The notes under the pieces: generated by a model
The model's input: the letters and a program-made list of their open reading frames with translations, nothing else
The model's database searches: none
Told to the model about the DNA's origin: nothing
Shown: piece after piece, positions 8,895 through 62,975 of the stretch
How the letters are laid out: each line of letters starts with the position of its first letter
How positions within the stretch are numbered: the first letter of the stretch is position 1
Assembly: GCF_000301075.1 (NCBI RefSeq)
Contig: NZ_JH932293.1
Span: 1,101,755 to 1,165,754 of the forward strand
From: Bergeyella zoohelcum ATCC 43767
GTDB lineage: Bacteria; Bacteroidota; Bacteroidia; Flavobacteriales; Weeksellaceae
Reading direction: 5' to 3'
Length of the DNA stretch: 64,000 nt
Translations under genes and position numbers: made by a program

Positions 8895-10298
8895 ATGATT
8901 TTAAATATTACCACTACCCACTCACCCGCTACGGATTTGGGGTATTTGCTTCATAAACATCCAGATAAGTTTCAGACTTTTGATTTGTCTATAGGAAGGG
9001 CTTTGGTGTTTTACCCTGAAGCAACAAATGAAAAAACAACCGTGAGCTTGTTGCTGGACATTGACCCTATTGATATGGTGAGAGGAGTGCGGAAAATGGG
9101 CGGAGATAATTTTGCCTTGGGACATTATGTAAATGATCGTCCTTATGTGGCCTCGTCTTTTATGAGTGTGGCAATTGCAAAGGCTTTCTCTTCAGCGATG
9201 AACGGAAAATGTAAAGATAAACCTGAATTGGTAGATAAGAAAATACCTATTGAGGTCAATATCAGCTCCATTCCTGCTCCTAAAGGAGGTGAACTTTTAA
9301 TCCGAAAATTGTTTGAACCTTTGGGGTACAAAGTAGTACTGACACGCCATACTTTAGACCAAAAATTTCCCGAATGGGGACAAAGTAAATATTTTTCGCT
9401 CCAATTAGAGCATACCATAACCGTGAAAGAACTGCTCTCTCATTTGTATGTATTAATACCTACTTTGGACAATGATAAACACTATTTCGTTAGTGAAAGC
9501 GAGATTGAAAAATTGCTCCAAAAAGGGGAAGGCTGGCTCAGGGAGCATCCAGAAAGAGAACAAATTATTCGGCGTTATCTTATTAATTTAGCTTCCCTAT
9601 CAAAACGAGCTTTAGAAAGAATCAGTGATGGAGAAACTGTAGACAATATAATAGATGAGTCTACAGAAAATAGCCAAATTCAAAAAAAGAAAGAAAGCCT
9701 GCATGATAAGCGCTTAAATTTGGTGGTAGAAAAACTTATAGAATCAGGAAGCGAACGCGTTTTAGACTTGGGTTGTGGTGAGGGGAAGCTCATTAAGCTG
9801 CTGCTCAAAGAAAGGCAATTTACAGAAATAGTAGGTATGGATGTATCTTACAGTGAATTGCTCAAAGCCAAAGAAAAATTGCATTTCGATGAAATGCCTC
9901 CTAAGCAGAAGGAAAAACTCCAGCTTTTTCAAGGTGCTCTGACCTATAGAGACCAGCGTCTCCATGGTTTTGATGCTGCTGCCGTAGTGGAAGTTATAGA
10001 GCATTTAGATTTAAACAGGTTGCAAGCTTTTGAACGCGTATTGTTTGGATTTGCTCAGCCAAAAACCATCGTGCTTACCACACCTAATAAAGAATATAAT
10101 GTAATGTGGGAACAATTGGAAGCCGAGAATATGAGGCATGATGACCATCGTTTTGAATGGACAAGAGAAGAATTCCAGCAGTGGGCAGATAAAATAGGAA
10201 AAATGTATAACTATAGTGTGGAGATTTTACCCATCGGATATGAAGAAGAAAATATCGGTGCTCCCTCACAAATGGCAATATTTAGATATGGAAATTAA
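8895..10298 (+). CDS. hen1: 3'-terminal RNA ribose 2'-O-methyltransferase Hen1
   Basis: Bacterial Hen1 methylates the 2'-OH at the 3' end of cleaved RNA and, with Pnkp, repairs tRNAs cut by ribotoxins so that the junction resists a second cut. At 467 residues the length is normal. Residues 1-240 match the N-terminal Hen1 domain that activates the Pnkp ligase. Residues from about 270 form the methyltransferase with the SAM-binding motif VLDLGCGEGK (289-298) and the metal-binding set E366, E369, H370 (EVIEHLD) and H415/H418 (RHDDHRF). The 3' end overlaps the pnkp start by 11 bp, so the two are translationally coupled. The family assignment is strong; its physiological trigger is unknown. Confidence 0.95.
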   Translation: MILNITTTHSPATDLGYLLHKHPDKFQTFDLSIGRALVFYPEATNEKTTVSLLLDIDPIDMVRGVRKMGGDNFALGHYVNDRPYVASSFMSVAIAKAFSSAMNGKCKDKPELVDKKIPIEVNISSIPAPKGGELLIRKLFEPLGYKVVLTRHTLDQKFPEWGQSKYFSLQLEHTITVKELLSHLYVLIPTLDNDKHYFVSESEIEKLLQKGEGWLREHPEREQIIRRYLINLASLSKRALERISDGETVDNIIDESTENSQIQKKKESLHDKRLNLVVEKLIESGSERVLDLGCGEGKLIKLLLKERQFTEIVGMDVSYSELLKAKEKLHFDEMPPKQKEKLQLFQGALTYRDQRLHGFDAAAVVEVIEHLDLNRLQAFERVLFGFAQPKTIVLTTPNKEYNVMWEQLEAENMRHDDHRFEWTREEFQQWADKIGKMYNYSVEILPIGYEEENIGAPSQMAIFRYGN

Positions 10299-12864
10299 AG
10301 TACCAGAGCTTTCATTAGTAGTGTTAATAGGTGTTTCTGGTTCGGGAAAAAGTAGTTTCGCGAAAAAACTGTTTAAACCTACAGAAATATTATCCTCTGA
10401 CCAATGTAGAGCATGGGTTTCAGATGATGAAAATAATCAGGCAGCTACCAATGACGCCTTTGATGTATTGCATTACATTGCAGATAAACGCCTTAAAAAT
10501 GGTTTACTGACCGTAATTGATGCAACGAATGTGCAAAAATCAGCACGAAAAGGATTGATAGAATTGGCAAAAAATCATCATTGTTTACCTGTAGCAATAG
10601 TGCTAGACTTGCCCGAAAAAGTTTGCGAAGAAAGAAATCAAAACAGAGTGGATAGAAATTTCGGAAATCATGTTATTCGTAGACAAGCTCAAGACTTGAA
10701 AAAATCCATTAAAGGGCTAAAACACGAAGGGTTTAGGCATATCTATGTTTTGAAATCGGCTGAGGAAGTGAATGCCGTAGAAGTCATCAAAAGAGAAAAA
10801 CTCTACAATGACAAAAAAGAAGAAAAAGGTCCATTTGATATTATTGGTGATGTTCACGGGTGTTTTCAGGAGTTGGAAGAATTGCTATTGAAACTGGGGT
10901 ATCAAATCAATAGAGTTGAAGAAAATACTAACAATTTTGGTTTTGAAGTCATTGCTCCCGAAAATAGAAAAGCCATTTTTCTTGGTGACCTAATTGATAG
11001 AGGTCCAGATTCGCCTTCGGTTTTGAAATTGGTCATGAGTATGGTAAACTCTGGTATAGCATATTGTGTACCAGGGAATCATGATTTGAAATTGCAGAAA
11101 TACCTCAGTGGGAAACAGGTACAGCTCAAACATGGGTTAGATCTTACCGTACAGCAATTAGAAAATGAAACTTCGGAATTTAAGAAAACCGTTGAGCAGT
11201 TTTTATATGGTCTCATCAGTCATTATGTTTTTGATGATGGGAATTTAGTAGTGGCTCATGCAGGATTAAAAGAAGAGATGCAAGGGCGTGGCTCAGAGGC
11301 GGTTCGTGCATTTTGTTTGTACGGTGAAACAACGGGGGAGATGGATGAGTTTGGTCTTCCTGTACGCCATAATTGGGCAGATGAGTACCGTGGAAAGGCG
11401 AAAGTGGTGTATGGACATACGCCCGTCCCAGAAGCTCAGTGGCTTAATAGAACCATTGATATTGATACCGGGTGTGTATTTGGAGGAAAACTAACCGCTC
11501 TTCGTTATCCTGAAGAGGAAATAGTATCCGTAAAGGCAAAACAAATTTACTGCGAACCTATAAGGCCACTACATTTTAATGAATCAGTTCAGCATCTCGA
11601 TGCTCAACAAGCGTACGACGATGTTTTGGATATAAAAGATGTTATAGGTAAAAGAATTGTACAAACCCGACTGAAAAACAATATTACCATTCGTGAGGAA
11701 AATTCCATTGCCGCTTTGGAGGTGATGAGCCGTTTTGCGATTAATCCTAAATGGTTAATTTATTTACCTCCTACCATGTCTCCATGCGAAACGAGTACTT
11801 TGCCCGAATTTTTGGAATATCCCGTCCAAGCTCTTAATTATTACAAAAAAAGAGGAGTGAAAACTGTGATTTGCGAAGAAAAACACATGGGGTCGCGGGT
11901 TGTTTTGGTTATTTGTAAAGATGAAGCGGCAGCATTTAAACGCTTTGGTGTGGAAAATGAAGGCATTGGCGTTTGCTATACACGGACGGGAAGAAACTTT
12001 TTTAATGATGCAGAAATAGAAAAAGTATTTTTATCTCGTGTAAATCAGTGTCTTACTAATACCCATTTTTGGGATAAATTTCATACCGATTGGGTTTGCC
12101 TTGATGCTGAGCTGATGCCTTGGTCAGCAAAAGCACAAGCTTTGATAAAAGAACAATATGCGTCTGTAGGAGCGGCAGCAAGTGGTGCTCTTCCAATGGT
12201 AGAGCAGGCTTTACAGATGGCTGTTGATAGAGGGATTAAGGATGCCTTGCCTTCGTTGGAAAAATTTTCACAGAAAAATAAAGCCATTGAAAAATATGTA
12301 CACGCTTACCAAAATTATTGCTGGCCAGTAACAAGTATTGATGATTATAAGCTCGCACCTTTTCATATTTTAGCTACAGAGGGGCAAGTGCATTTTGATA
12401 AAAATCATCAATGGCACATGAAAACCATCCAAGAAATAAGTAAAGGTGATGATCAGCTTTTTATGGCAACACCTCATAAAATAGTGGATTTAACAGATTC
12501 CAAGAGCTTTGAAGAGGCAGTACAATGGTGGCTAGATCTTACCCAAAATGGCGGTGAAGGAATGGTGGTAAAACCGTATGAATTTATTACTTACGGTACC
12601 GAAGGAGTATTGCAACCTGCAGTGAAATGCCGAGGGAAGGAATATCTCAGAATCATCTATGGTCCCGAGTACGATGCACCAGAAAATCTAGAACGCCTAA
12701 AAAATAGAAGCCTTTCCAGAAAACGCTCCTTAGCAATTAGAGAGTTTGCCCTTGGGCTAGAATCCCTCGAACGATTCGTGAAAAAAGAACCTCTAAGACG
12801 CATTCATGAAAGTGTCTTTGGGGTACTGGCCCTCGAAAGTGAAGATGTAGATCCAAGATTGTGA
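10288..12864 (+). CDS. pnkp: polynucleotide kinase-phosphatase-ligase Pnkp (bacterial RNA repair)
   Basis: This 858-residue trifunctional RNA-repair enzyme has three domains in order. The kinase P-loop is GVSGSGKSS (15-23). The metallophosphatase has GDVHG (187-191), GDLIDRG (233-239) and PGNHD (262-266). The adenylyltransferase/ligase has motif I EEKHMGSR with catalytic K532 and motif IV GGEGMVVKP (755-763). It heals 5'-OH and 2',3'-phosphate ends and, with Hen1, seals and methylates the break. The ATG at 10288 is chosen because it places the P-loop at the usual distance and overlaps the hen1 stop; the in-frame start at 10216 would add 24 residues lying within hen1. All key residues are present, so activity is expected. 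Confidence 0.95.
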   Translation: MEIKVPELSLVVLIGVSGSGKSSFAKKLFKPTEILSSDQCRAWVSDDENNQAATNDAFDVLHYIADKRLKNGLLTVIDATNVQKSARKGLIELAKNHHCLPVAIVLDLPEKVCEERNQNRVDRNFGNHVIRRQAQDLKKSIKGLKHEGFRHIYVLKSAEEVNAVEVIKREKLYNDKKEEKGPFDIIGDVHGCFQELEELLLKLGYQINRVEENTNNFGFEVIAPENRKAIFLGDLIDRGPDSPSVLKLVMSMVNSGIAYCVPGNHDLKLQKYLSGKQVQLKHGLDLTVQQLENETSEFKKTVEQFLYGLISHYVFDDGNLVVAHAGLKEEMQGRGSEAVRAFCLYGETTGEMDEFGLPVRHNWADEYRGKAKVVYGHTPVPEAQWLNRTIDIDTGCVFGGKLTALRYPEEEIVSVKAKQIYCEPIRPLHFNESVQHLDAQQAYDDVLDIKDVIGKRIVQTRLKNNITIREENSIAALEVMSRFAINPKWLIYLPPTMSPCETSTLPEFLEYPVQALNYYKKRGVKTVICEEKHMGSRVVLVICKDEAAAFKRFGVENEGIGVCYTRTGRNFFNDAEIEKVFLSRVNQCLTNTHFWDKFHTDWVCLDAELMPWSAKAQALIKEQYASVGAAASGALPMVEQALQMAVDRGIKDALPSLEKFSQKNKAIEKYVHAYQNYCWPVTSIDDYKLAPFHILATEGQVHFDKNHQWHMKTIQEISKGDDQLFMATPHKIVDLTDSKSFEEAVQWWLDLTQNGGEGMVVKPYEFITYGTEGVLQPAVKCRGKEYLRIIYGPEYDAPENLERLKNRSLSRKRSLAIREFALGLESLERFVKKEPLRRIHESVFGVLALESEDVDPRL

Positions 12865-52165: not shown

Positions 52166-53557
52166 TTACATTTTTTCAGATTCTTTTAATATGTATTGGT
52201 ACAAATCTTTCATGCTTATGTTAGGATTTTCTTTGTATTTTGTGAGTAAAGCTCTGTTAAAAACTTTAAACCGATTGAATCCTCGGTCTTGTTCCATTTG
52301 TGCTTCCATTGATGGCAAGAATCCCAAAACTTCTTCTTCTGAATAATTGTCCCAAAGATACAGGCTGTACACTGCAAAAGTCATATACTCATTGAAAACC
52401 TTATATGCGTTGTTATAAGCTGTGGTAATTTCACTTTTTGCCCATGTTTCGCGATCTGCAAAAACCTTGTTTATATCTTCTATCATTGTGTCTGAAAGCG
52501 GATTTACATAATTGTGGTCTATCTCGGTAAAAACCACACGCCCTTGCTTGATTTCATTTTGAATGGGCGAAAGCCCTTGATCGTCTTCGGCTTTGCAGAT
52601 AAACATAAAAGTTTGCGAAAGTCCGTTGTCTTCATAGCGAACCGTGGAATGAGCTCCCTGAACCAATGGTGAAAAATAAACCATATACGAGCCGTATCCG
52701 AAACCAAATTTTGCATCCAACCAGTTTTGCATTTTTTGAATAGGATTTAGACGCTTGTAATCAGAAATTAGTTGATTGTAATAGCTTTGATTGTCTTTAT
52801 AAAATTGTCTGAAATTTGATTTTTGGGCAAAATCTGCAAAAACTTTCGCATCTTTCATGGGGTCAAAAGCAGTCCATCCTTTTGCCAATTGTTTTATATT
52901 ACCACTATTGACGATGTTTCCTTTTTTGTCAAATTCATAGGCACAAGCATTCATCTTCAGACCGTAATAATAGTAATAATCCTTAATAGGAAACATATAT
53001 TCATTAGACTCATTCAGTGCTACCTTGGTAATATACTTGTGAATGGTATCCATAGCCGGATGCTTGAGGTATGGGGCAAAATGTTTTTTGATACGCTTGA
53101 AATAATCGGTCTGTGTATCAAACATATTAGAGTCTTTTTCCGCATCGCTGTGTAGTGCCATGAGGATATTGACCAGTTCGCTCACCTCAGGAATGGCTAC
53201 AAAGGTTTTTCCTTGATGTTTCTGAACATATTTTTTAGAAAAAGTAATATTGGGGGCTACTGCTTTTATTTGGGTACGGAGGGTATCGTTTTGAGCGTTT
53301 ATAAACCAGATATCTGTAGGAATATTTCTTTCGAGACCGATGGTTTGTTGTTTTTTTCCATCGGATAGAGTGATTTTTATTTTCTTTTTGGTGGTTTCTA
53401 TTTCTTTGATTTTTTCTTTATCGGAAGCCCAATTCCAAGTACTAATTTTTTTATCGGTTTTGATTTCCAAACTGTTTTTGTCCGTATTAAAAATTACTTG
53501 CCCATAGGAAAATTGCATTCCTAAAATCAGCATTGTAAGGGTAGTTTTTGTTGTCAT
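52166..53557 (-). CDS. DUF4932 exported protein, putative metallopeptidase
   Basis: This 463-residue protein starts at MTTKTTLTMLILGMQFSYGQ, a signal peptide; 21 upstream in-frame codons are excluded. The mature protein fits the DUF4932 pattern: LVNILMALHSDAEKD near residue 150, VQGAHSTVRYED and VVFTEIDHNYVNPLS near residue 360. The conserved His and Glu residues suggest a zinc hydrolase, but the activity is not established. The gene is the third in a row after mkoA and mkoB on the minus strand, 70 bp downstream of mkoB, and lies inside the block bounded by the 103-bp repeats. Confidence 0.72.
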   Translation of the reverse strand: MTTKTTLTMLILGMQFSYGQVIFNTDKNSLEIKTDKKISTWNWASDKEKIKEIETTKKKIKITLSDGKKQQTIGLERNIPTDIWFINAQNDTLRTQIKAVAPNITFSKKYVQKHQGKTFVAIPEVSELVNILMALHSDAEKDSNMFDTQTDYFKRIKKHFAPYLKHPAMDTIHKYITKVALNESNEYMFPIKDYYYYYGLKMNACAYEFDKKGNIVNSGNIKQLAKGWTAFDPMKDAKVFADFAQKSNFRQFYKDNQSYYNQLISDYKRLNPIQKMQNWLDAKFGFGYGSYMVYFSPLVQGAHSTVRYEDNGLSQTFMFICKAEDDQGLSPIQNEIKQGRVVFTEIDHNYVNPLSDTMIEDINKVFADRETWAKSEITTAYNNAYKVFNEYMTFAVYSLYLWDNYSEEEVLGFLPSMEAQMEQDRGFNRFKVFNRALLTKYKENPNISMKDLYQYILKESEKM

Positions 53558-53627
53558 AAATGATTTCGTTGTTTTTATAATAAGATGAACCACTTTCTGA
53601 AATGTTACAAATATATTCAAAATTCTG

Positions 53628-54959
53628 CTACGGTAATTTATATTCTACCAAGACATTTTTTCTTTTTCCTTGTACATTCTCTTTCACTAATATACTTGAT
53701 TCATTCGCCACTTTTTCTCCTTCTTTCTTGTTAAAAGACAGAAAGTTAAAGCTTCCTTGTATATAATAATCATCATCTTTAATGACTAATTTACGATGCG
53801 TTCCTACTAATCTTCTTTCTCCAATTTTCTCAAAATGAGAAGGTAAATGAATCATTTTGAATAGGTTAAAATATTTTTCTTTCAACTTTTCTAATTTCTT
53901 AATCACTTCATAATGATGTTCATCATTATCTTTGATTCCGTAAAGAATGATGACTTCGACTTTATTTTTCAACAAGTTTTCTATATCATTTAAGTAATTA
54001 AGTGTTGCCTTTTTTATCCAAGGGCTCTCAATTAAAAGTTGTTTTTTGGCTGTTTTTAATGCCTCCTTAAATTTACTTTGAGTTTCCCAAATAGACAATT
54101 CAGAAACTAAATCGTTATCAGTAACTTTTTCCTGAAAAGAAGCAATTAATTCTGGTTCCTCTTCTTGAATTTCGGCTATTACATTTCTATCAGAATCAGA
54201 TAGTTGATAAACTATAGTGGGATATTCTTCTTGTAGTGATTTGGTTAATTCTTTATTTAATGAAAGGTCATTGTCATTATTTCTAACTTCAATAAATGGG
54301 TCGTTTTCATTGTTATTGTTGGGTTTGTATTCCACCATTATAAACTTTCCGAATACTTTTTTGTCAAAAAGTATTTCTTCTTTTTCATAATCAACCAAAT
54401 AAGATTCTTCTAAATGTTCTTCTTTATATACATCTTGAAGTTGCTGACTCTTTTCTTCCAACATTTTCACATCTTTGTGGCTAAAATCGAATTTAGGATC
54501 CAATCTTTTATATTCTTCCGAGTTGGCAGATGTTTTTATATTCTTTCTTGATATAATTTTGTTCGTGAAAACATCCAATAGAAAAGAAAATTCTTCCTTT
54601 TCTATTGATTTCAAAATGGTTGTATCTTGTAAAAATTTTTCACCTTGTGGAGTTATTAGCCATTTGTCTGAAATTAAATCAAGGAAACCTTTTTTTCTAA
54701 GATTGTAAAGTTCACGAATAATAAAATCATCTTTAGTTAGCCCTAGAAATTGTATCAAATCTTTTTCTGTATTGTATCCTATTTTAACTGTACGGAGCAA
54801 AACTGAATAAATCTGTTGAAGAGATTTTTCAGGAGATTTATTTACCAAAGCATTAATTTTCAACTCTCTGTATGGGTATAAGAAAGGAATTACCTCATTG
54901 ATTTTATACTCAATAGAGCATTTTTCTTTTAATTTATCATATATGCTTTTTAAGTCCAT
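53628..54959 (-). CDS. mkoB: Mokosh type I nuclease-like protein MkoB (PLD domain)
   Basis: This 443-residue cytoplasmic protein has a winged-helix-like N-terminal region near residues 55-110 (LIQFLGLTKDDFIIRELYNL ... WLITPQGEKFL), a variable acidic middle and a C-terminal phospholipase-D-type domain. That domain has the HKD motif H388-x-K390 ... D395 (THRKLVIKDDDYYIQGSFN). A single HKD motif implies dimerisation to complete the active site. It starts 3 bp after the mkoA stop, so the two are translationally linked. A PLD protein beside a kinase-helicase is the published layout of Mokosh type I anti-phage systems. Confidence 0.83.
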   Translation of the reverse strand: MDLKSIYDKLKEKCSIEYKINEVIPFLYPYRELKINALVNKSPEKSLQQIYSVLLRTVKIGYNTEKDLIQFLGLTKDDFIIRELYNLRKKGFLDLISDKWLITPQGEKFLQDTTILKSIEKEEFSFLLDVFTNKIISRKNIKTSANSEEYKRLDPKFDFSHKDVKMLEEKSQQLQDVYKEEHLEESYLVDYEKEEILFDKKVFGKFIMVEYKPNNNNENDPFIEVRNNDNDLSLNKELTKSLQEEYPTIVYQLSDSDRNVIAEIQEEEPELIASFQEKVTDNDLVSELSIWETQSKFKEALKTAKKQLLIESPWIKKATLNYLNDIENLLKNKVEVIILYGIKDNDEHHYEVIKKLEKLKEKYFNLFKMIHLPSHFEKIGERRLVGTHRKLVIKDDDYYIQGSFNFLSFNKKEGEKVANESSILVKENVQGKRKNVLVEYKLP

Positions 54960-54962
54960 TTT

Positions 54963-57900
54963 TTAAAAAATTTGTTCAATATTATTTACTCTCCACTCCT
55001 CTTTTATTGCTTTCAAATAATTTTGTAAAGCAACTTTTCCTGACGAATTATGTGATTTAGCTTGTAATAACCATTCGTAATTGCCTATAATGATAAGTAA
55101 TTTCTTATGGCGAGATAGTGCTACATTGATTCGATTGGCATTGGCTAAAAATCCGAGTGTATTTTGGTTGCTACGAACCAAATCAAAAATAATAATATCT
55201 TTTTCAAGACCTTGAAACTTATCTACCACAGAAACCGCCACATCTTTCATTTTTATTCTTTTTAATTTATTAGAATAAAGTGGTTTCAAATTTTTATTAA
55301 TTTCTCTAAGTTGAGCTTTGTAGCCTGTTATTACTCCAATAGAATAATTTTTAACCCTGTCGAAATTATCCAATTTTTGCAGTAATTGAGGAATAAGCTT
55401 AGCACTTACTCTATTTTTTGAGGAGCCATTACCATCTACTTCACTTCTTACGGCATTTCCTATATCCAAAAATATGATTGAACTATCTACCTTCAAATCA
55501 AGATTATGTTCTTGTTCTTTTGGTCTTTCCACTGGCTTAATAGCTTCATCTCCAAAAACTTCATAAAAATATTTTGAAGTGAGGTGTACAGCATCTTTTG
55601 GCATTCGTCTGCACTCTTCAAGCTGACTTTTATAATCTTCATCTATTTTTTTTATAATATTTTCAAAAAGACTTGGACGATTGAAATAATCCTCAAAATT
55701 TTTTATTTCATCTAAAATTTTAGCCTCATTTTTGTGTTTTTCTCGTAACCATTTTTCTACTTCTTTGTTTGAAGTAAGCATTGGTCTTAACTGTCTATGG
55801 TCACCCACTAAAACAGCATTATTACCCAAAACAAGTGGAATCAAAGACTCTGGAAGTGTGGCTTTCCCGCTTTCGTCCATAATCACATAATCAAACTCAA
55901 AATTATATTTAGCGTACTTTTTCGCAGCGATATGACTTGTAGTGGCTCCTATAACTCTAATGGTGTCAATCAGTTTTTGGTTGATTTGGCTTTTTTCATC
56001 TAATCCACTAACGACATTGCGCCAATCTTTATAAATGTTTTGTTTTTCAAAATAATCAGAAAATGCTAACCCTGTAAGTGCATCTAATGCTTGCAGAAAA
56101 TCTTTTTCGGAAGTTAATTCTGTAATTAGAAGGTTATATTTTTTACTGAATTTCAATTGTTTTTCAATATCCTTGCTTTTCTCTTTCCAATTCTTATTGG
56201 AAGAAAGCGTTTCAAATATTTGCCTTAAATCTTTATTTAATTTTTGAGCAAAAGCATTTTTAATAGATTTCCAATTCTCTTCTGTTCGTTTTTTAACTTC
56301 TTCCTTCCAGCCCTCAATTTTTCGTTCAAGAGTGTGTTTTTGTAACGACAGCTTTGGTTTTCGCACACCACTTAATCGAATTAAAGGAATATTTTTTTCT
56401 AGCAAATTATCCAATACATTATCCACAGCGTCGTTCGTTTGTGAGGTAATCAGTATTTTCGCTCCTCTGTCTCTATTTAGTATTTGAAATACAATTTCGG
56501 TAATGACCGTAGTTTTTCCTGTTCCAGGAGGACCTTGAATTACTGTAAGAGGTTTTCTGTGAATTGCATTTACGATTGCTTTCCGCTGATTGTAGCTGTA
56601 CTGATAAGATTTTCCATTTTTATCTGTTTGATAGACTTTTTCTAATTGAATATCTATATACTCACCTTCAAGTTTATCAGAATTAAATAGATAATGAATT
56701 AACTCAGTGCTTTGAACATCATTATTTCTGATTTTATTTAGTGCTTCTTGTTGGCGTTTTTTCTCTTCTTCTTGCCTACTAATATTCTCAAATAAGTAAC
56801 CATTTTTAGGAATTTTATTAGAATCGATAAATTCACAATCTTTGAATTTTAATATTTTTCCTGATAAATTTGAATCACTATCCTTTTTAGCTTCTTTTTG
56901 GTTCTCAATTTTTTCAAAATCATATGCTGTACCCAAAAATTTTAAAGTGTCTTTTTTTATTTGTTTTTTATCGGCTGTACTGCTTAAAATATATTCAAAT
57001 TCCTCAGGTTTAGGTGGCATTGATTTGTCTATGTGCGTATAAACCTGACTATCATCAGAATATTTTTCATTTTTAGCAATTTTAAACCAAATTTCATAAT
57101 CATTTATTTTTTTATAATCGGTATATTGTAATCTCAATGAATTTTTATGAATAATTTCTAACTCTTTCTCTATAAGCTCTTTGTAGAAATCCAATTCTTT
57201 ATAAATATTCTTTTTGATATTTCTATAAGAATTTTCAGCCTGTTTTTGTTTTAAGATTTTATCAAAGAAAGGTTTTAGTGAAAAGTAATTCTTTTCATAA
57301 TAAATTGGTTCATATTTATCACAATAAATTGGTTTATATTTAAAAAGTACAGGAACTTCTAGTTTTATACCTCTCTGAATTGTTTTTTTATAATTTTCTT
57401 CTTGGTCTCCTTTCCAAACATAATCAGTTATGTGTAAATCTTCTTCTTCCAGTCTCCATAATGCCTGAAAATAGTAATTTTTTGTTGCAACATTTAATAA
57501 AATATTGTTTCCTCCTTTCGGACTTATGTCAAAAACAGGCTTAACTTCTTCATTATTTAACTCTCCTAAAAAATCAATTTTTGCTAAATTATTCCTAACT
57601 GAAATAGGAACAAGTTCTTCATCTTCAAGAGAATTACTTTCTATAATTTTAGAGATTTTGGTGTGTAACTCATGATAATTGGGTCTATCTGATGGTTTGT
57701 TTTTACAAATATCTTTAACTAAATCATCTATCAAACCAATATTCTCATATTTAAAATACCATTCAATAACTTTTCCAATGGAGTATACATCAGATTGATA
57801 AGGAAATCCTTTTTCAACTTCTTTGTTCCATTTTTCAGGAGCAGCGAACTCACGAGCGAAAACTTCTATTTCTTTGGCTTGACTTAGTGTTGTGGCAATA

Positions 57901-58358
57901 TCTGTAATTCCAAAATCTATTAAATAGAAATTATAATCTTCATCTACCAGAATATTTTCGGGGGTAATATCTCCGTGCGAAATTCTATTTTTCAAATTAA
58001 GTTGTTGCAAACAATCTATAATCTGAAGTATGCCTCTTAAAAAGAAATTGGGATAATAATATTCCTCTTCAATATCCCATTTCAAAGTGTTAGCTTCTTG
58101 CTTATATTCAAAAATGATACAATAAGCCTTTTGAGTTTCATCCCACCCATATTCAATGACCTGAGGCAATACCTTATGTTTTGCCTTCTGCAAATTGCGA
58201 AGTTTGTCCGAAAGTATCCTGCTGGGTGTGCTATCTTTGTGTATGCCTCTCAGCCATTTTGCAAAGTAGTCTTCACCTCTTTCATTTTGAACAATTGCGA
58301 TTGAAGAATAACCTCTTTCGTTTATTTCTGATAGTAGTTGGTATTTGTTGAGAATCAT
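54963..58358 (-). CDS. mkoA: Mokosh type I kinase-helicase MkoA
   Basis: This 1131-residue fusion has two parts. Residues 1-240 are a Ser/Thr-kinase-like domain with the ATP Lys in YFAKWL, the catalytic loop H128-G129-D130 (HGDITPENIL, HGD for HRD) and DFG at 148-150. From about residue 590 it is an SF1 Upf1/COG1112-type helicase: Walker A GPPGTGKTT (K615), the DESGKA Walker-B box near 828, VLVGDHRQLRPML, VVDKFQGLEKDIIIFDLVRS and NVALSRHKKLLII. A kinase-helicase with an adjacent PLD gene defines Mokosh type I, a phage-defence system. All helicase motifs appear intact. Confidence 0.85.
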   Translation of the reverse strand: MILNKYQLLSEINERGYSSIAIVQNERGEDYFAKWLRGIHKDSTPSRILSDKLRNLQKAKHKVLPQVIEYGWDETQKAYCIIFEYKQEANTLKWDIEEEYYYPNFFLRGILQIIDCLQQLNLKNRISHGDITPENILVDEDYNFYLIDFGITDIATTLSQAKEIEVFAREFAAPEKWNKEVEKGFPYQSDVYSIGKVIEWYFKYENIGLIDDLVKDICKNKPSDRPNYHELHTKISKIIESNSLEDEELVPISVRNNLAKIDFLGELNNEEVKPVFDISPKGGNNILLNVATKNYYFQALWRLEEEDLHITDYVWKGDQEENYKKTIQRGIKLEVPVLFKYKPIYCDKYEPIYYEKNYFSLKPFFDKILKQKQAENSYRNIKKNIYKELDFYKELIEKELEIIHKNSLRLQYTDYKKINDYEIWFKIAKNEKYSDDSQVYTHIDKSMPPKPEEFEYILSSTADKKQIKKDTLKFLGTAYDFEKIENQKEAKKDSDSNLSGKILKFKDCEFIDSNKIPKNGYLFENISRQEEEKKRQQEALNKIRNNDVQSTELIHYLFNSDKLEGEYIDIQLEKVYQTDKNGKSYQYSYNQRKAIVNAIHRKPLTVIQGPPGTGKTTVITEIVFQILNRDRGAKILITSQTNDAVDNVLDNLLEKNIPLIRLSGVRKPKLSLQKHTLERKIEGWKEEVKKRTEENWKSIKNAFAQKLNKDLRQIFETLSSNKNWKEKSKDIEKQLKFSKKYNLLITELTSEKDFLQALDALTGLAFSDYFEKQNIYKDWRNVVSGLDEKSQINQKLIDTIRVIGATTSHIAAKKYAKYNFEFDYVIMDESGKATLPESLIPLVLGNNAVLVGDHRQLRPMLTSNKEVEKWLREKHKNEAKILDEIKNFEDYFNRPSLFENIIKKIDEDYKSQLEECRRMPKDAVHLTSKYFYEVFGDEAIKPVERPKEQEHNLDLKVDSSIIFLDIGNAVRSEVDGNGSSKNRVSAKLIPQLLQKLDNFDRVKNYSIGVITGYKAQLREINKNLKPLYSNKLKRIKMKDVAVSVVDKFQGLEKDIIIFDLVRSNQNTLGFLANANRINVALSRHKKLLIIIGNYEWLLQAKSHNSSGKVALQNYLKAIKEEWRVNNIEQIF

Positions 58359-58851: not shown

Positions 58852-59850
58852 TCATTTTTTCCTGCTTTCTTTTTTGGCTTGTTTTTCTAATTGATGGAGG
58901 GTTTCTAGATAGCTTTCCTCTACGCTAGAAAGCGTTTTGGCGTTGTATTTTCGGTATTCGGTGAGGGCTTTTTCTTTGGCTTTTTCGGTGGAGATTTTTC
59001 CTGCATCGGTCAGTACTTTTCGCCCTGTGGAGGAGAGGATATTGTCTAGCTCTCGTGCATAATCTGCCATTTTCATTTCTCGCTCTTCGATGGCGTTGAG
59101 CTCTGCCAAATCAAAATACGCCGCTACCAAATTGTTGAGTACTTTGAGTTCTTGCTCTTTGAGGTAATTTTTGGCAATCATTGCTTCGGCTTGTGTGGGT
59201 TGTGAGCCTTTGAAATTCGTTAGCCCAGCAAAGGGTTTGTCGCTATCTACGCGATAATAAATCACTTCGCTTGCGGTGTTGCCGTGTGCGGCGTAGTGGA
59301 GTTTGTTCTGCACGATTTTGAAAAAATCTTGACTCACTTTGCTCTTGGGGTCGTAGTCGGTAGCGGTGGCGTACAAGTCCAATACTTGCCGATACATTAC
59401 TTTTTCGGACGAACGAATATCGCGGATTCTGTCTAAAAGTTCTTTCCAATGATTGCCACCGCCGAGGTTTTTCAGGCGTTCGTCATTGAGGGTAAAGCCT
59501 TTTACGATGTATTCTTTGAGACGCTCTGTAGCCCAAATACGGAATTTGGTAGCAATGTGAGATTTGATACGATACCCTAAGGAGATAATCATATCAAGGT
59601 TGTAATGCACTACATTGTAGGTTTTGCCATCGGTGGCAGTTGTTCGGAATTTCCGAACAACTGAATTTTCCTGCAATTCTCCTTCCTCAAATATATGACT
59701 AATATGCTCACTTACATTCGATTTACTTGTTTGGTAAAGCTCTACTAATTGCTGTTGAGTAAGCCAAATATTTTCGTCTTCCAAACGCACTTTCAGCTGG
59801 TTGTCTTCTGTGGTTTGGTAGATAATCGTTTTTTGGGTAGGATTTTCCAT
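58852..59850 (-). CDS. rhuM: RhuM family protein
   Basis: This 332-residue protein of the RhuM (virulence-associated) family begins with IIYQTTEDNQLKVRLEDENIWLTQQQLVELYQTSKSNVSEH, a HTH-like start. It continues with YNLDMIISLGYRIKSHIATKFRIWATERLKEYI, the family core, and has a long helical C-terminus. The family is frequently found inside restriction-modification loci and defence islands; its biochemical role is unknown. Here it lies between Mokosh and DUF6261. Its 3' flank carries the palindromic repeat family. Confidence 0.85.
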   Translation of the reverse strand: MENPTQKTIIYQTTEDNQLKVRLEDENIWLTQQQLVELYQTSKSNVSEHISHIFEEGELQENSVVRKFRTTATDGKTYNVVHYNLDMIISLGYRIKSHIATKFRIWATERLKEYIVKGFTLNDERLKNLGGGNHWKELLDRIRDIRSSEKVMYRQVLDLYATATDYDPKSKVSQDFFKIVQNKLHYAAHGNTASEVIYYRVDSDKPFAGLTNFKGSQPTQAEAMIAKNYLKEQELKVLNNLVAAYFDLAELNAIEEREMKMADYARELDNILSSTGRKVLTDAGKISTEKAKEKALTEYRKYNAKTLSSVEESYLETLHQLEKQAKKESRKK

Positions 59851-61048: not shown

Positions 61049-61678
61049 TTAAAAATATTCTTTTAGTTCATCCGAATGGAAAAGCAATTCCATCTCGCAC
61101 ATTGTTTTTTGAGGATTTTGAGGGTCGAAATTTCCAAGAGATTTGGCGTTTTCTAAAGCAGTTGATAGATACTCTTTGAGTTTTAAGTAAATATCTTGAT
61201 TTTTTGTGAAAAAGTCTTCTGTTTTTTCGTATCCCTCTATATACTTTTTCAATTCCTTTTCTGCATTAGAGCAAGAATTAAATGTTTTTGTAGTTTTTAT
61301 ATAGTGAAGCAGAAACCAATATTCAAGACAAGGATTATTGACAATAACAACGACTTTTTTATTTTTGAGTAGCTTGTTTCTGTAGTTTATAAACTTCTCA
61401 CTTGGTTTTTGGTTTCCTTTTTTGGCTTCTCTATCTTCTTTGAGAATGGTATCAAAATCAATAATCCAAAAAACTTTGTCAAATTCCTCTTCGGCTAATT
61501 TACATACCTTATTGTATTGCTGCTCTATGCTTTTTTTCTGTGGAATTTCAGGTTTTATTTTCACTCGTATTTGTCGTTTATTTCGTTTGAGCATTTGCAA
61601 ATACCAGAACTCGGTATCTCCATCAACTACCACAGCAAAAGTGGGATTGGTTTTGGGTGTCCTTCTATTACTTTTCAT
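61049..61678 (-). CDS. rloB: RloB family protein (TOPRIM-like, AbiLii-type)
   Basis: This 209-residue protein of the RloB family has FAVVVDGDTEFWYLQML near residue 15 (acidic TOPRIM-like Glu), FWIIDFDTILKED near residue 70 (DxD) and NPCLEYWFLLHY near residue 118. The family pairs with RloA ATPases and with the lactococcal abortive-infection protein AbiLii. It is thought to be the effector nuclease-like partner. The start ATG at 61678 (MKSNRRTPKTN) lies 4 bp after the rloA stop; the TTG at 61688-61690 overlapping rloA is less likely. Confidence 0.85.
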   Translation of the reverse strand: MKSNRRTPKTNPTFAVVVDGDTEFWYLQMLKRNKRQIRVKIKPEIPQKKSIEQQYNKVCKLAEEEFDKVFWIIDFDTILKEDREAKKGNQKPSEKFINYRNKLLKNKKVVVIVNNPCLEYWFLLHYIKTTKTFNSCSNAEKELKKYIEGYEKTEDFFTKNQDIYLKLKEYLSTALENAKSLGNFDPQNPQKTMCEMELLFHSDELKEYF

Positions 61679-61682
61679 AGCA

Positions 61683-62975
61683 TTAATCAATGTAAGTATC
61701 GCCTAAATTAGGAGTTCCGCTTAGTTTTCCACTTTTGTAGGCATTCAAAATATTGGTTGTATCGCGAATAACCGAAGTATCAAAATCAGCCAATGAGTAA
61801 AGCTCTGTGGCACAACCTTCTCCTTTGTTGGTAAACCATATGGCATCGTTTCTGAAAAGGTCTTTATCGTTTAAAATTTCTCTGTTATGCGTGGTTGCGA
61901 TGAGCTGAGAATTTTTAGCATTTAAAAGAAACGAAAGCAAAAAGTGCAAATACAAATCAGGATGTAAAGAAGTTTCCAACTCGTCAATGGGAAAAGCCGT
62001 TGAAGTTTTTATCAGTAAAGCCAATAGTCCTGCAAAACTATAGTAGCGTTTTGTACCTTCGGATTCTAAATCTAAGGGGAGATAGTATTTGGCTCCATTT
62101 ACGGTATGCTCAAATTCTGTTTTAACTGCTGTGATTTTACCTTTTCTTTCTAATTCTATAATTTTTTCTTCAGGTATATCATTTTGTGTTTTCAGGAAAT
62201 CAAGAAAACCATTGGGCAATTTATTTTCTTCTTCTTTTATCACGATATCCGAAATATTCAAATCAGCTTTTTTTAGTATAGAAAGTATATCTGATTTAGC
62301 TATTTCCTTATTATCAATTTTACTTGTTACAAATCCTTCCAATTGGGTTTTCGTATAAATAAGAGGTTTTAAATAAGTCCTAAACCAATCCACGACTTCC
62401 TGCAATTCTTTACATTCGATATTGGTTTTTAAGAATCCACCCAAAACGGTATTGTTCCACAAAGTATTTGCTGTGAGGGTTTTCTGAGAAATAGTATCAA
62501 CACTGACTTTACTCCCAAAACTAATTTTGGTTAATTGTTTTTCCAAATCGGTCGTTCTTTTAAAAACATTGGCTTTTCTAGAATTGTTATAAGAATACAA
62601 GGCCTCCGAAACTATGGCTTTTTGGGAAAATTCTACTTCGTATAAGTATTTTACTTCGTTTTGGAGAAACTCAATGGTAAAAAAAGAATTTTGGTTGGGA
62701 GTATCAACATCAAACAAAAACGGATTAAAATCTAATTCTTCACTCTTTTTTTCCAAAGGATTCATTACCATACTACCCAAAAAGTTAAGAGCTTTGAGTA
62801 TGGTAGTTTTCCCAGAGGCATTAGCTCCATAAATTAGAGCAAGTTTCAAAATCCTATGCTTTCCTGATTGTATGATATAAGTATCTTCAAGATGTGTTGA
62901 TTTGTCTGCTTCAAATGAAAGCTTTTGCTTGTCCTTTATAGAGCCAAAGTTTTGAACAGTGAAATTAATAATCAT
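61683..62975 (-). CDS. rloA: RloA family AAA15/ABC-type ATPase (AbiLi-like)
   Basis: This 430-residue ATPase has FTVQNFGSIKDKQKLSFEA at the start (SMC/ABC-like), Walker A GANASGKT (50-57), a long helical middle, and a Walker B/D-loop region FPIDELETSLHPDLYLHFLL followed by SQLIATTHNREIL. It matches the RloA/AAA15 (COG1106) group. It is followed by rloB after 4 bp; the pair resembles AbiL and, more loosely, OLD- and PARIS-type ATPase plus TOPRIM immune modules. Motifs are intact, so the module is probably functional. The trigger is unknown. Confidence 0.85.
   Translation of the reverse strand: MIINFTVQNFGSIKDKQKLSFEADKSTHLEDTYIIQSGKHRILKLALIYGANASGKTTILKALNFLGSMVMNPLEKKSEELDFNPFLFDVDTPNQNSFFTIEFLQNEVKYLYEVEFSQKAIVSEALYSYNNSRKANVFKRTTDLEKQLTKISFGSKVSVDTISQKTLTANTLWNNTVLGGFLKTNIECKELQEVVDWFRTYLKPLIYTKTQLEGFVTSKIDNKEIAKSDILSILKKADLNISDIVIKEEENKLPNGFLDFLKTQNDIPEEKIIELERKGKITAVKTEFEHTVNGAKYYLPLDLESEGTKRYYSFAGLLALLIKTSTAFPIDELETSLHPDLYLHFLLSFLLNAKNSQLIATTHNREILNDKDLFRNDAIWFTNKGEGCATELYSLADFDTSVIRDTTNILNAYKSGKLSGTPNLGDTYID

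Follow-up and report, generated by a model that had tools for sequence, protein, structure and literature searches.

A Mokosh type I operon with an atypical kinase-like domain in Bergeyella zoohelcum

Results

Two adjacent genes with kinase-like, helicase, and nuclease domains

We analysed a stretch of 64,000 nucleotides of the genome of Bergeyella zoohelcum ATCC 43767 (contig NZ_JH932293.1), hereafter called the window. It carries two adjacent genes of the minus strand, mkoA and then mkoB, which are distinct ORFs with a stop codon in between and a gap of 3 nucleotides (Table 1). An earlier note, made from the sequence alone, had placed both ORFs exactly to the base, and had described a 1131-residue fusion of a kinase-like domain with an SF1 helicase directly before a PLD protein with a single HKD motif. 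This description is confirmed by the Pfam profiles, the HKD motif, and the short gap. Pkinase matches residues 23–198 of MkoA (53.6 bits for a cut-off of 31.7), AAA_11 matches residues 589–863 (E = 7e-42), and AAA_12 residues 896–1094 (E = 1e-36). The match of PLDc_2 to residues 299–406 of MkoB is weak and under the cut-off (E = 1.3e-4). The helicase motifs of MkoA are invariant in a 9-member alignment (A3), save for single conservative positions, and are also conserved in a further alignment (A4). The single HKD of MkoB is conserved in the relatives that have a complete PLD domain. A text scan for promoters of the Bacteroidota type found a single consensus-like site, about 290 nucleotides upstream of mkoA.

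Table 1. Features of the mkoAB operon and of other loci in the window (residue numbers are those of the encoded protein)
Feature	Position	Strand	Residues	Description
mkoA	54963–58358	-	1–1131	1131 aa, ATG start; kinase-like domain and Upf1-type SF1 helicase
MkoA kinase-like domain	57639–58346	-	~5–240	RGYS 15–18 (Gly-rich loop position); K34 (beta-3 Lys); K52 (alpha-C Glu position); HGD 128–130 (catalytic D130); N135; DFG 148–150 (D148); APE 173–175
MkoA middle region			~245–585	
MkoA helicase core	55044–56594	-	589–1105	C-terminal, Upf1-like SF1; Walker A GPPGTGKT 609–616; motif II DESG 828–831; motif III GDHRQL 852–857; later motifs VDKFQGLEKD 1045–1054 and NVALSR 1078–1083
mkoB	53628–54959	-	1–443	443 aa, ATG start; single-HKD PLD protein
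MkoB winged-helix region			~43–116	Predicted; followed by a middle region
MkoB PLD nuclease domain			~290–435	C-terminal, single HKD
MkoB HKD signature	53742–53801	-	387–406	THRKLVIKDDDYYIQGSFNF
DUF4932 protein	52166–53620	-		Directly downstream of mkoB; G+C 35%, intermediate
RhuM-family protein	58852–59850	-		Pfam Virulence_RhuM, E = 3e-102; PADLOC candidate PDC-S05, E = 3e-153
AbiLii/RloB-like protein	61049–61690	-		PADLOC AbiLii, E = 1.6e-17; Pfam RloB, E = 1.6e-27; not Mokosh
AbiLi-like AAA ATPase	61683–62975	-		PADLOC AbiLi, E = 4.6e-77; Pfam AAA_21; not Mokosh
Hen1 and Pnkp RNA-repair pair	8895–12864	+		TIGR04074, TIGR04075; ~41 kb from mkoAB

The AF2 models of the two proteins, built from 9-row alignments, are poor overall (mean pLDDT of 48.7 and 50.2), and only parts of them are confident. 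In MkoB, residues 43–116 were modelled as a winged helix, with pLDDT mostly between 80 and 90 over residues 50–110. This region has only weak Pfam matches, and its comparison with the PDB retrieved CggR, MarR, and DtxR (Z scores of about 8–9.4 over 65–81 residues). The fold comparison of the MkoB model, which is uninformative for the PLD part, returned no PLD fold. This one local region of a poor model suggests that MkoB has a conserved and so far unannotated N-terminal winged helix, which may be its link to MkoA.

Assignment to Mokosh type I

Mokosh is reportedly a system from Millman et al. 2022. The earlier note had recognised the architecture of its type I in the window, and the PADLOC profiles name Mokosh for both genes, with no family outside Mokosh scoring better. 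The MkoA profile (PDLC03920) matches residues 2–1120 of MkoA with 477.9 bits (E = 2.3e-143), and the MkoB profile (PDLC03922) scores 118.8 bits (E = 1e-34), its best stretch covering positions 10–380 of 610. All the proteins scanned with the same profiles, 12 MkoA and 11 MkoB including the window copies, were matched. Type I is described as having helicase and PLD on separate genes, plus a Ser/Thr kinase domain (PMC11672841), and this is what we find: a Pkinase-matching domain and a helicase in MkoA, followed on the same strand by MkoB. MkoA has been assigned to the SF1_Upf1 group (PMC10925250), and the solved chains nearest to the window protein by sequence are those of NAM7/Upf1. The PADLOC scores and a gene order that recurs in 22 other loci rule out a chance pairing. 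We conclude that the locus is almost certainly a complete Mokosh type I anti-phage operon, probably acquired by horizontal transfer (see below). It is an ordinary, complete copy of an already described system.

The NCBIfam search returned no model with Mokosh in its name, and its best matches fell below their cut-offs. Among these, PLuB was rejected with 156.8 bits for PLuB_AAA against a curated cut-off of 999, as was the IGHMBP2-family helicase (TIGR00376), which covers the helicase part only, with 210 bits against a curated cut-off of 348.9. Mokosh type II (MkoC) has helicase and PLD modules too, and its profile matches both MkoA (E = 2e-32) and MkoB (E = 8e-14). It was set aside because it needs the two modules on one polypeptide, whereas the window operon splits them over two genes and has a kinase-like domain. 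Single ORFs with a fused, type II-like layout, about 1200 residues long and bearing a PLD domain, do occur in four genomes of the family to which the window genome belongs.

The operon shares with type I the two adjacent genes, the first encoding an STK-like domain and a Upf1-type helicase and the second a separate PLD protein. It differs from it in the length of MkoB, 443 residues for a profile of 610 positions, and in the kinase, which lacks the alpha-C Glu, the glycines of the Gly-rich loop, and the Arg of HRD. The C-terminus of MkoB is related to the PLD nuclease domain of DrmC from DISARM (E = 3.6e-8), a match also seen in the MkoB set (7 of the 11 proteins), but no further DISARM gene was found by PADLOC among the eight island ORFs scanned. 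An analogy between the domains of Mokosh and those of the piRNA pathway has been published (PMC11291487). MkoA does share a Upf1-type SF1 helicase with eukaryotic Upf1/NAM7 and with the helicase/PLD proteins of that pathway, but the mkoAB operon has neither an Argonaute/PIWI partner nor a guide RNA, and the likeness is one of analogy only.

The kinase-like domain departs from the standard pattern in Bacteroidota

We compared the kinase residues in an alignment of 22 MkoA N-termini and in alignments A3 and A4. The catalytic loop reads HGD instead of HRD, as the earlier note had observed. The entire Bacteroidota branch shares this feature; it is not confined to the window copy. Every Bacteroidota MkoA whose catalytic loop can be recognised (12 proteins, the window copy among them) has HGD, a Lys at the alpha-C Glu position, and RGYS in place of the Gly-rich loop, and these proteins retain the catalytic Lys, Asp, Asn, DFG, and APE (or SPE). 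The kinase-bearing relatives outside Bacteroidota (n = 8) all have the alpha-C Glu, together with HRD in the seven cyanobacterial and actinobacterial proteins and HND in that of Aliarcobacter. The cyanobacterial MkoA of Aulosira gave no kinase match, and one Bacteroidota MkoA (L032) has lost all the catalytic kinase residues, with no HxD, Asn, or DFG left.

The usual partner of the beta-3 Lys in kinases is the alpha-C Glu. The altered motifs are invariant across the 12 Bacteroidota proteins, which argues for constraint rather than drift. The domain probably still does something in this branch, even if phosphotransfer cannot be read from the sequence. Since several standard elements are lost, the label 'STK' may not describe its role correctly. 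One tentative and rather doubtful possibility is that it became an atypical, perhaps non-phosphorylating, nucleotide-binding switch that would gate the nuclease by binding ATP or a ligand, and not by conventional kinase signalling. The earlier note had deemed the locus functional because its motifs are intact. The helicase and HKD motifs are indeed intact, but the inference goes too far, since the kinase lacks several standard residues.

Relatives and distribution

A mkoB-like gene directly follows mkoA in all 22 other loci, which come from four phyla (Bacteroidota, cyanobacteria, actinobacteria, and Campylobacterota) and comprise eight close relatives from a genome scan, five Bacteroidota loci from genome searches, and nine plasmid loci. 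The two genes usually overlap by a few nucleotides or leave a short gap, suggesting that their products are made together. The close relatives have 55–78% identity. The nearest is a Capnocytophaga metagenome-assembled genome (MAG; 78% for MkoA, 73–74% for MkoB), and the others are from Winogradskyella, Lacinutrix, Maribacter, Psychroserpens, Alkalitalea, and a Saprospiraceae MAG. The plasmid loci are from cyanobacteria, Streptomyces, Arthrobacter, and Aliarcobacter. Mokosh type I is rare in the family and phylum genomes surveyed: full-length MkoB relatives were found in 1 other of 296 family genomes and 2 others of 395 phylum genomes, alongside forms that were truncated or lacked the PLD domain. 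The only complete relative found in the family has 48% (MkoA) and 45% (MkoB) identity. Neither the phage records searched for relatives nor, for MkoB, the viral contigs contained any.

Some loci encode shortened MkoB proteins. In the Capnocytophaga MAG, the mkoB ORF (L029:5097-6311) ends early, just past HxKx4D, at 404 residues, which is either an assembly error or a real frameshift. We considered whether the PLD-less forms could be natural 'effector swaps', but they are better explained as truncations. In genome G630 (locus L031), a 272-residue MkoB stops before the PLD domain and a PD-(D/E)XK gene adjoins it. The end of this MkoB lies in a repeat also found upstream of mkoA and around the PDDEXK gene, and genes of the PDDEXK_3 type are common (3–5 per genome in the three genomes checked), so truncation by insertion of the repeat is the simpler reading. 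In the other case (L032:166-4418), the MkoA with the degraded kinase precedes a 293-residue MkoB without PLD. This locus has probably decayed, since its MkoB ends in unrelated sequence and its MkoA is a pseudokinase. It sits on a short contig, and the genome, which is fragmented, carries an intact mkoAB as well (L035).

Genomic setting and probable horizontal acquisition

The defence island that holds mkoAB in the window is small. It also contains a gene of the RhuM family, one for a DUF6261 protein, and an AbiL-like pair, and is bounded by a deoxyhypusine-synthase-like (dhs-like) gene and valS. The two ORFs of the AbiL-like pair overlap at 61683–61690 and form a second defence system, located some 2.7 kb upstream of mkoA. 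The RhuM-family gene adjoins the operon and has a G+C content of 42%, unlike mkoAB. The DUF4932 protein on the other side gave no defence match. The window also encodes a Hen1 and Pnkp pair. Such cassettes repair cut RNAs, and there could be a link with mkoAB if the latter cuts RNA.

The G+C content of mkoAB is low (28–30%), and its GC3 is 0.22–0.23, compared with 0.33–0.44 for hisS, the dhs-like gene, and valS. This composition, together with the much closer similarity to the Capnocytophaga copy (78/74%) than to the relative in its own family (48/45%), indicates that mkoAB was probably acquired by horizontal transfer. In an empty-site analysis, none of the relatives found had the dhs-like gene next to valS, so a clean insertion point cannot be defined.

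Across loci, mkoAB is often beside other defence genes. It is associated with type I restriction-modification (R-M) genes in several Bacteroidota relatives (L024:4894-7953, L028:4894-7953, L030:4557-7766, and L031:1116-13404): hsdR is immediately upstream in the first three, ending 47 nucleotides before mkoA in L024 and L028, and in L031 the operon is inside an hsdM...hsdS-hsdR cluster. L035, with an N6-methylase gene downstream, belongs to the same R-M group. MzaC/MzaE-AIPR genes are neighbours in L029, and an AbiU-like AbiU/AIPR protein is encoded next to L033. On a conjugative plasmid of Nostoc (L036:4920-10476), mkoAB is closely followed by a type II CBASS (CD-NTase, E2, Mov34/JAB).

Discussion

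A possible mechanism and its alternatives

We propose that MkoA, as a translocase of the Upf1 family, would engage nucleic acid of foreign origin, with phage RNA as the likeliest target. MkoB would be held to it by the N-terminal winged-helix and middle regions, and would have to dimerise because one HKD is half an active site. Translocation driven by ATP would then bring the substrate to the PLD nuclease, or free the nuclease, which would cut it and might thus protect the cell from phages. The kinase-like domain would be a regulatory nucleotide-binding module, with a switch being a likelier role in the Bacteroidota branch than that of a conventional Ser/Thr kinase activated by phosphorylation. 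A 2026 review enters the mechanism of Mokosh as unknown (PMC12926258). We regard our scheme, with its translocase, PLD dimer, and regulatory module taken together, as evenly poised between right and wrong, and the overall explanation—a Mokosh type I operon working along these lines—as probable.

The same operon might instead target DNA, with MkoA moving on single-stranded DNA or R-loops and MkoB cutting the DNA of the phage. Other PLD restriction nucleases cut DNA, MkoB matches DrmC, the Upf1-like PDB matches of MkoA include the DNA enzymes SMUBP2 and DNA2, and mkoAB directly adjoins type I R-M genes in several relatives. We find this rather unlikely, if well worth considering, and favour an RNA target because of the relationship with Upf1, since the solved proteins nearest to MkoA are RNA helicases, and because Mokosh is regarded as RNA-directed in the literature (PMC11291487), although both arguments are indirect.

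The operon could also be drifting, a locus derived from Mokosh that no longer defends and whose kinase domain is a dead remnant. The residues missing from the kinase would fit such decay, as would the complete loss of catalytic residues in L032 and the absence of PLD from the MkoB of two relatives. We think it improbable: both ORFs are full length, with conserved helicase and HKD motifs, and the altered kinase motifs, invariant in 12 Bacteroidota proteins, are a mark of constraint. An origin in another kinase-helicase family, such as PglW/BREX, PD-T4-6, MADS, or a PLuB-type system, is extremely unlikely and essentially refuted by the profile scores. MkoA does have weaker matches to mad6 (E = 6e-15), PD-T4-6 (E = 1e-11), and PLuB_AAA (E = 5e-46), but they are partial, score far below the MkoA profile, and leave the linked MkoB unexplained.

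Significance

The Mokosh type I operon of the window adds one more well-formed example from Bacteroidota to a system that the 2026 review still lists without a known mechanism. The operon is unusual only in its kinase, which, as in its Bacteroidota relatives, misses several standard regulatory residues. Annotation by profiles hides two features of these operons: the non-canonical kinase conserved in the whole Bacteroidota branch and the winged helix that appears to be conserved in MkoB.
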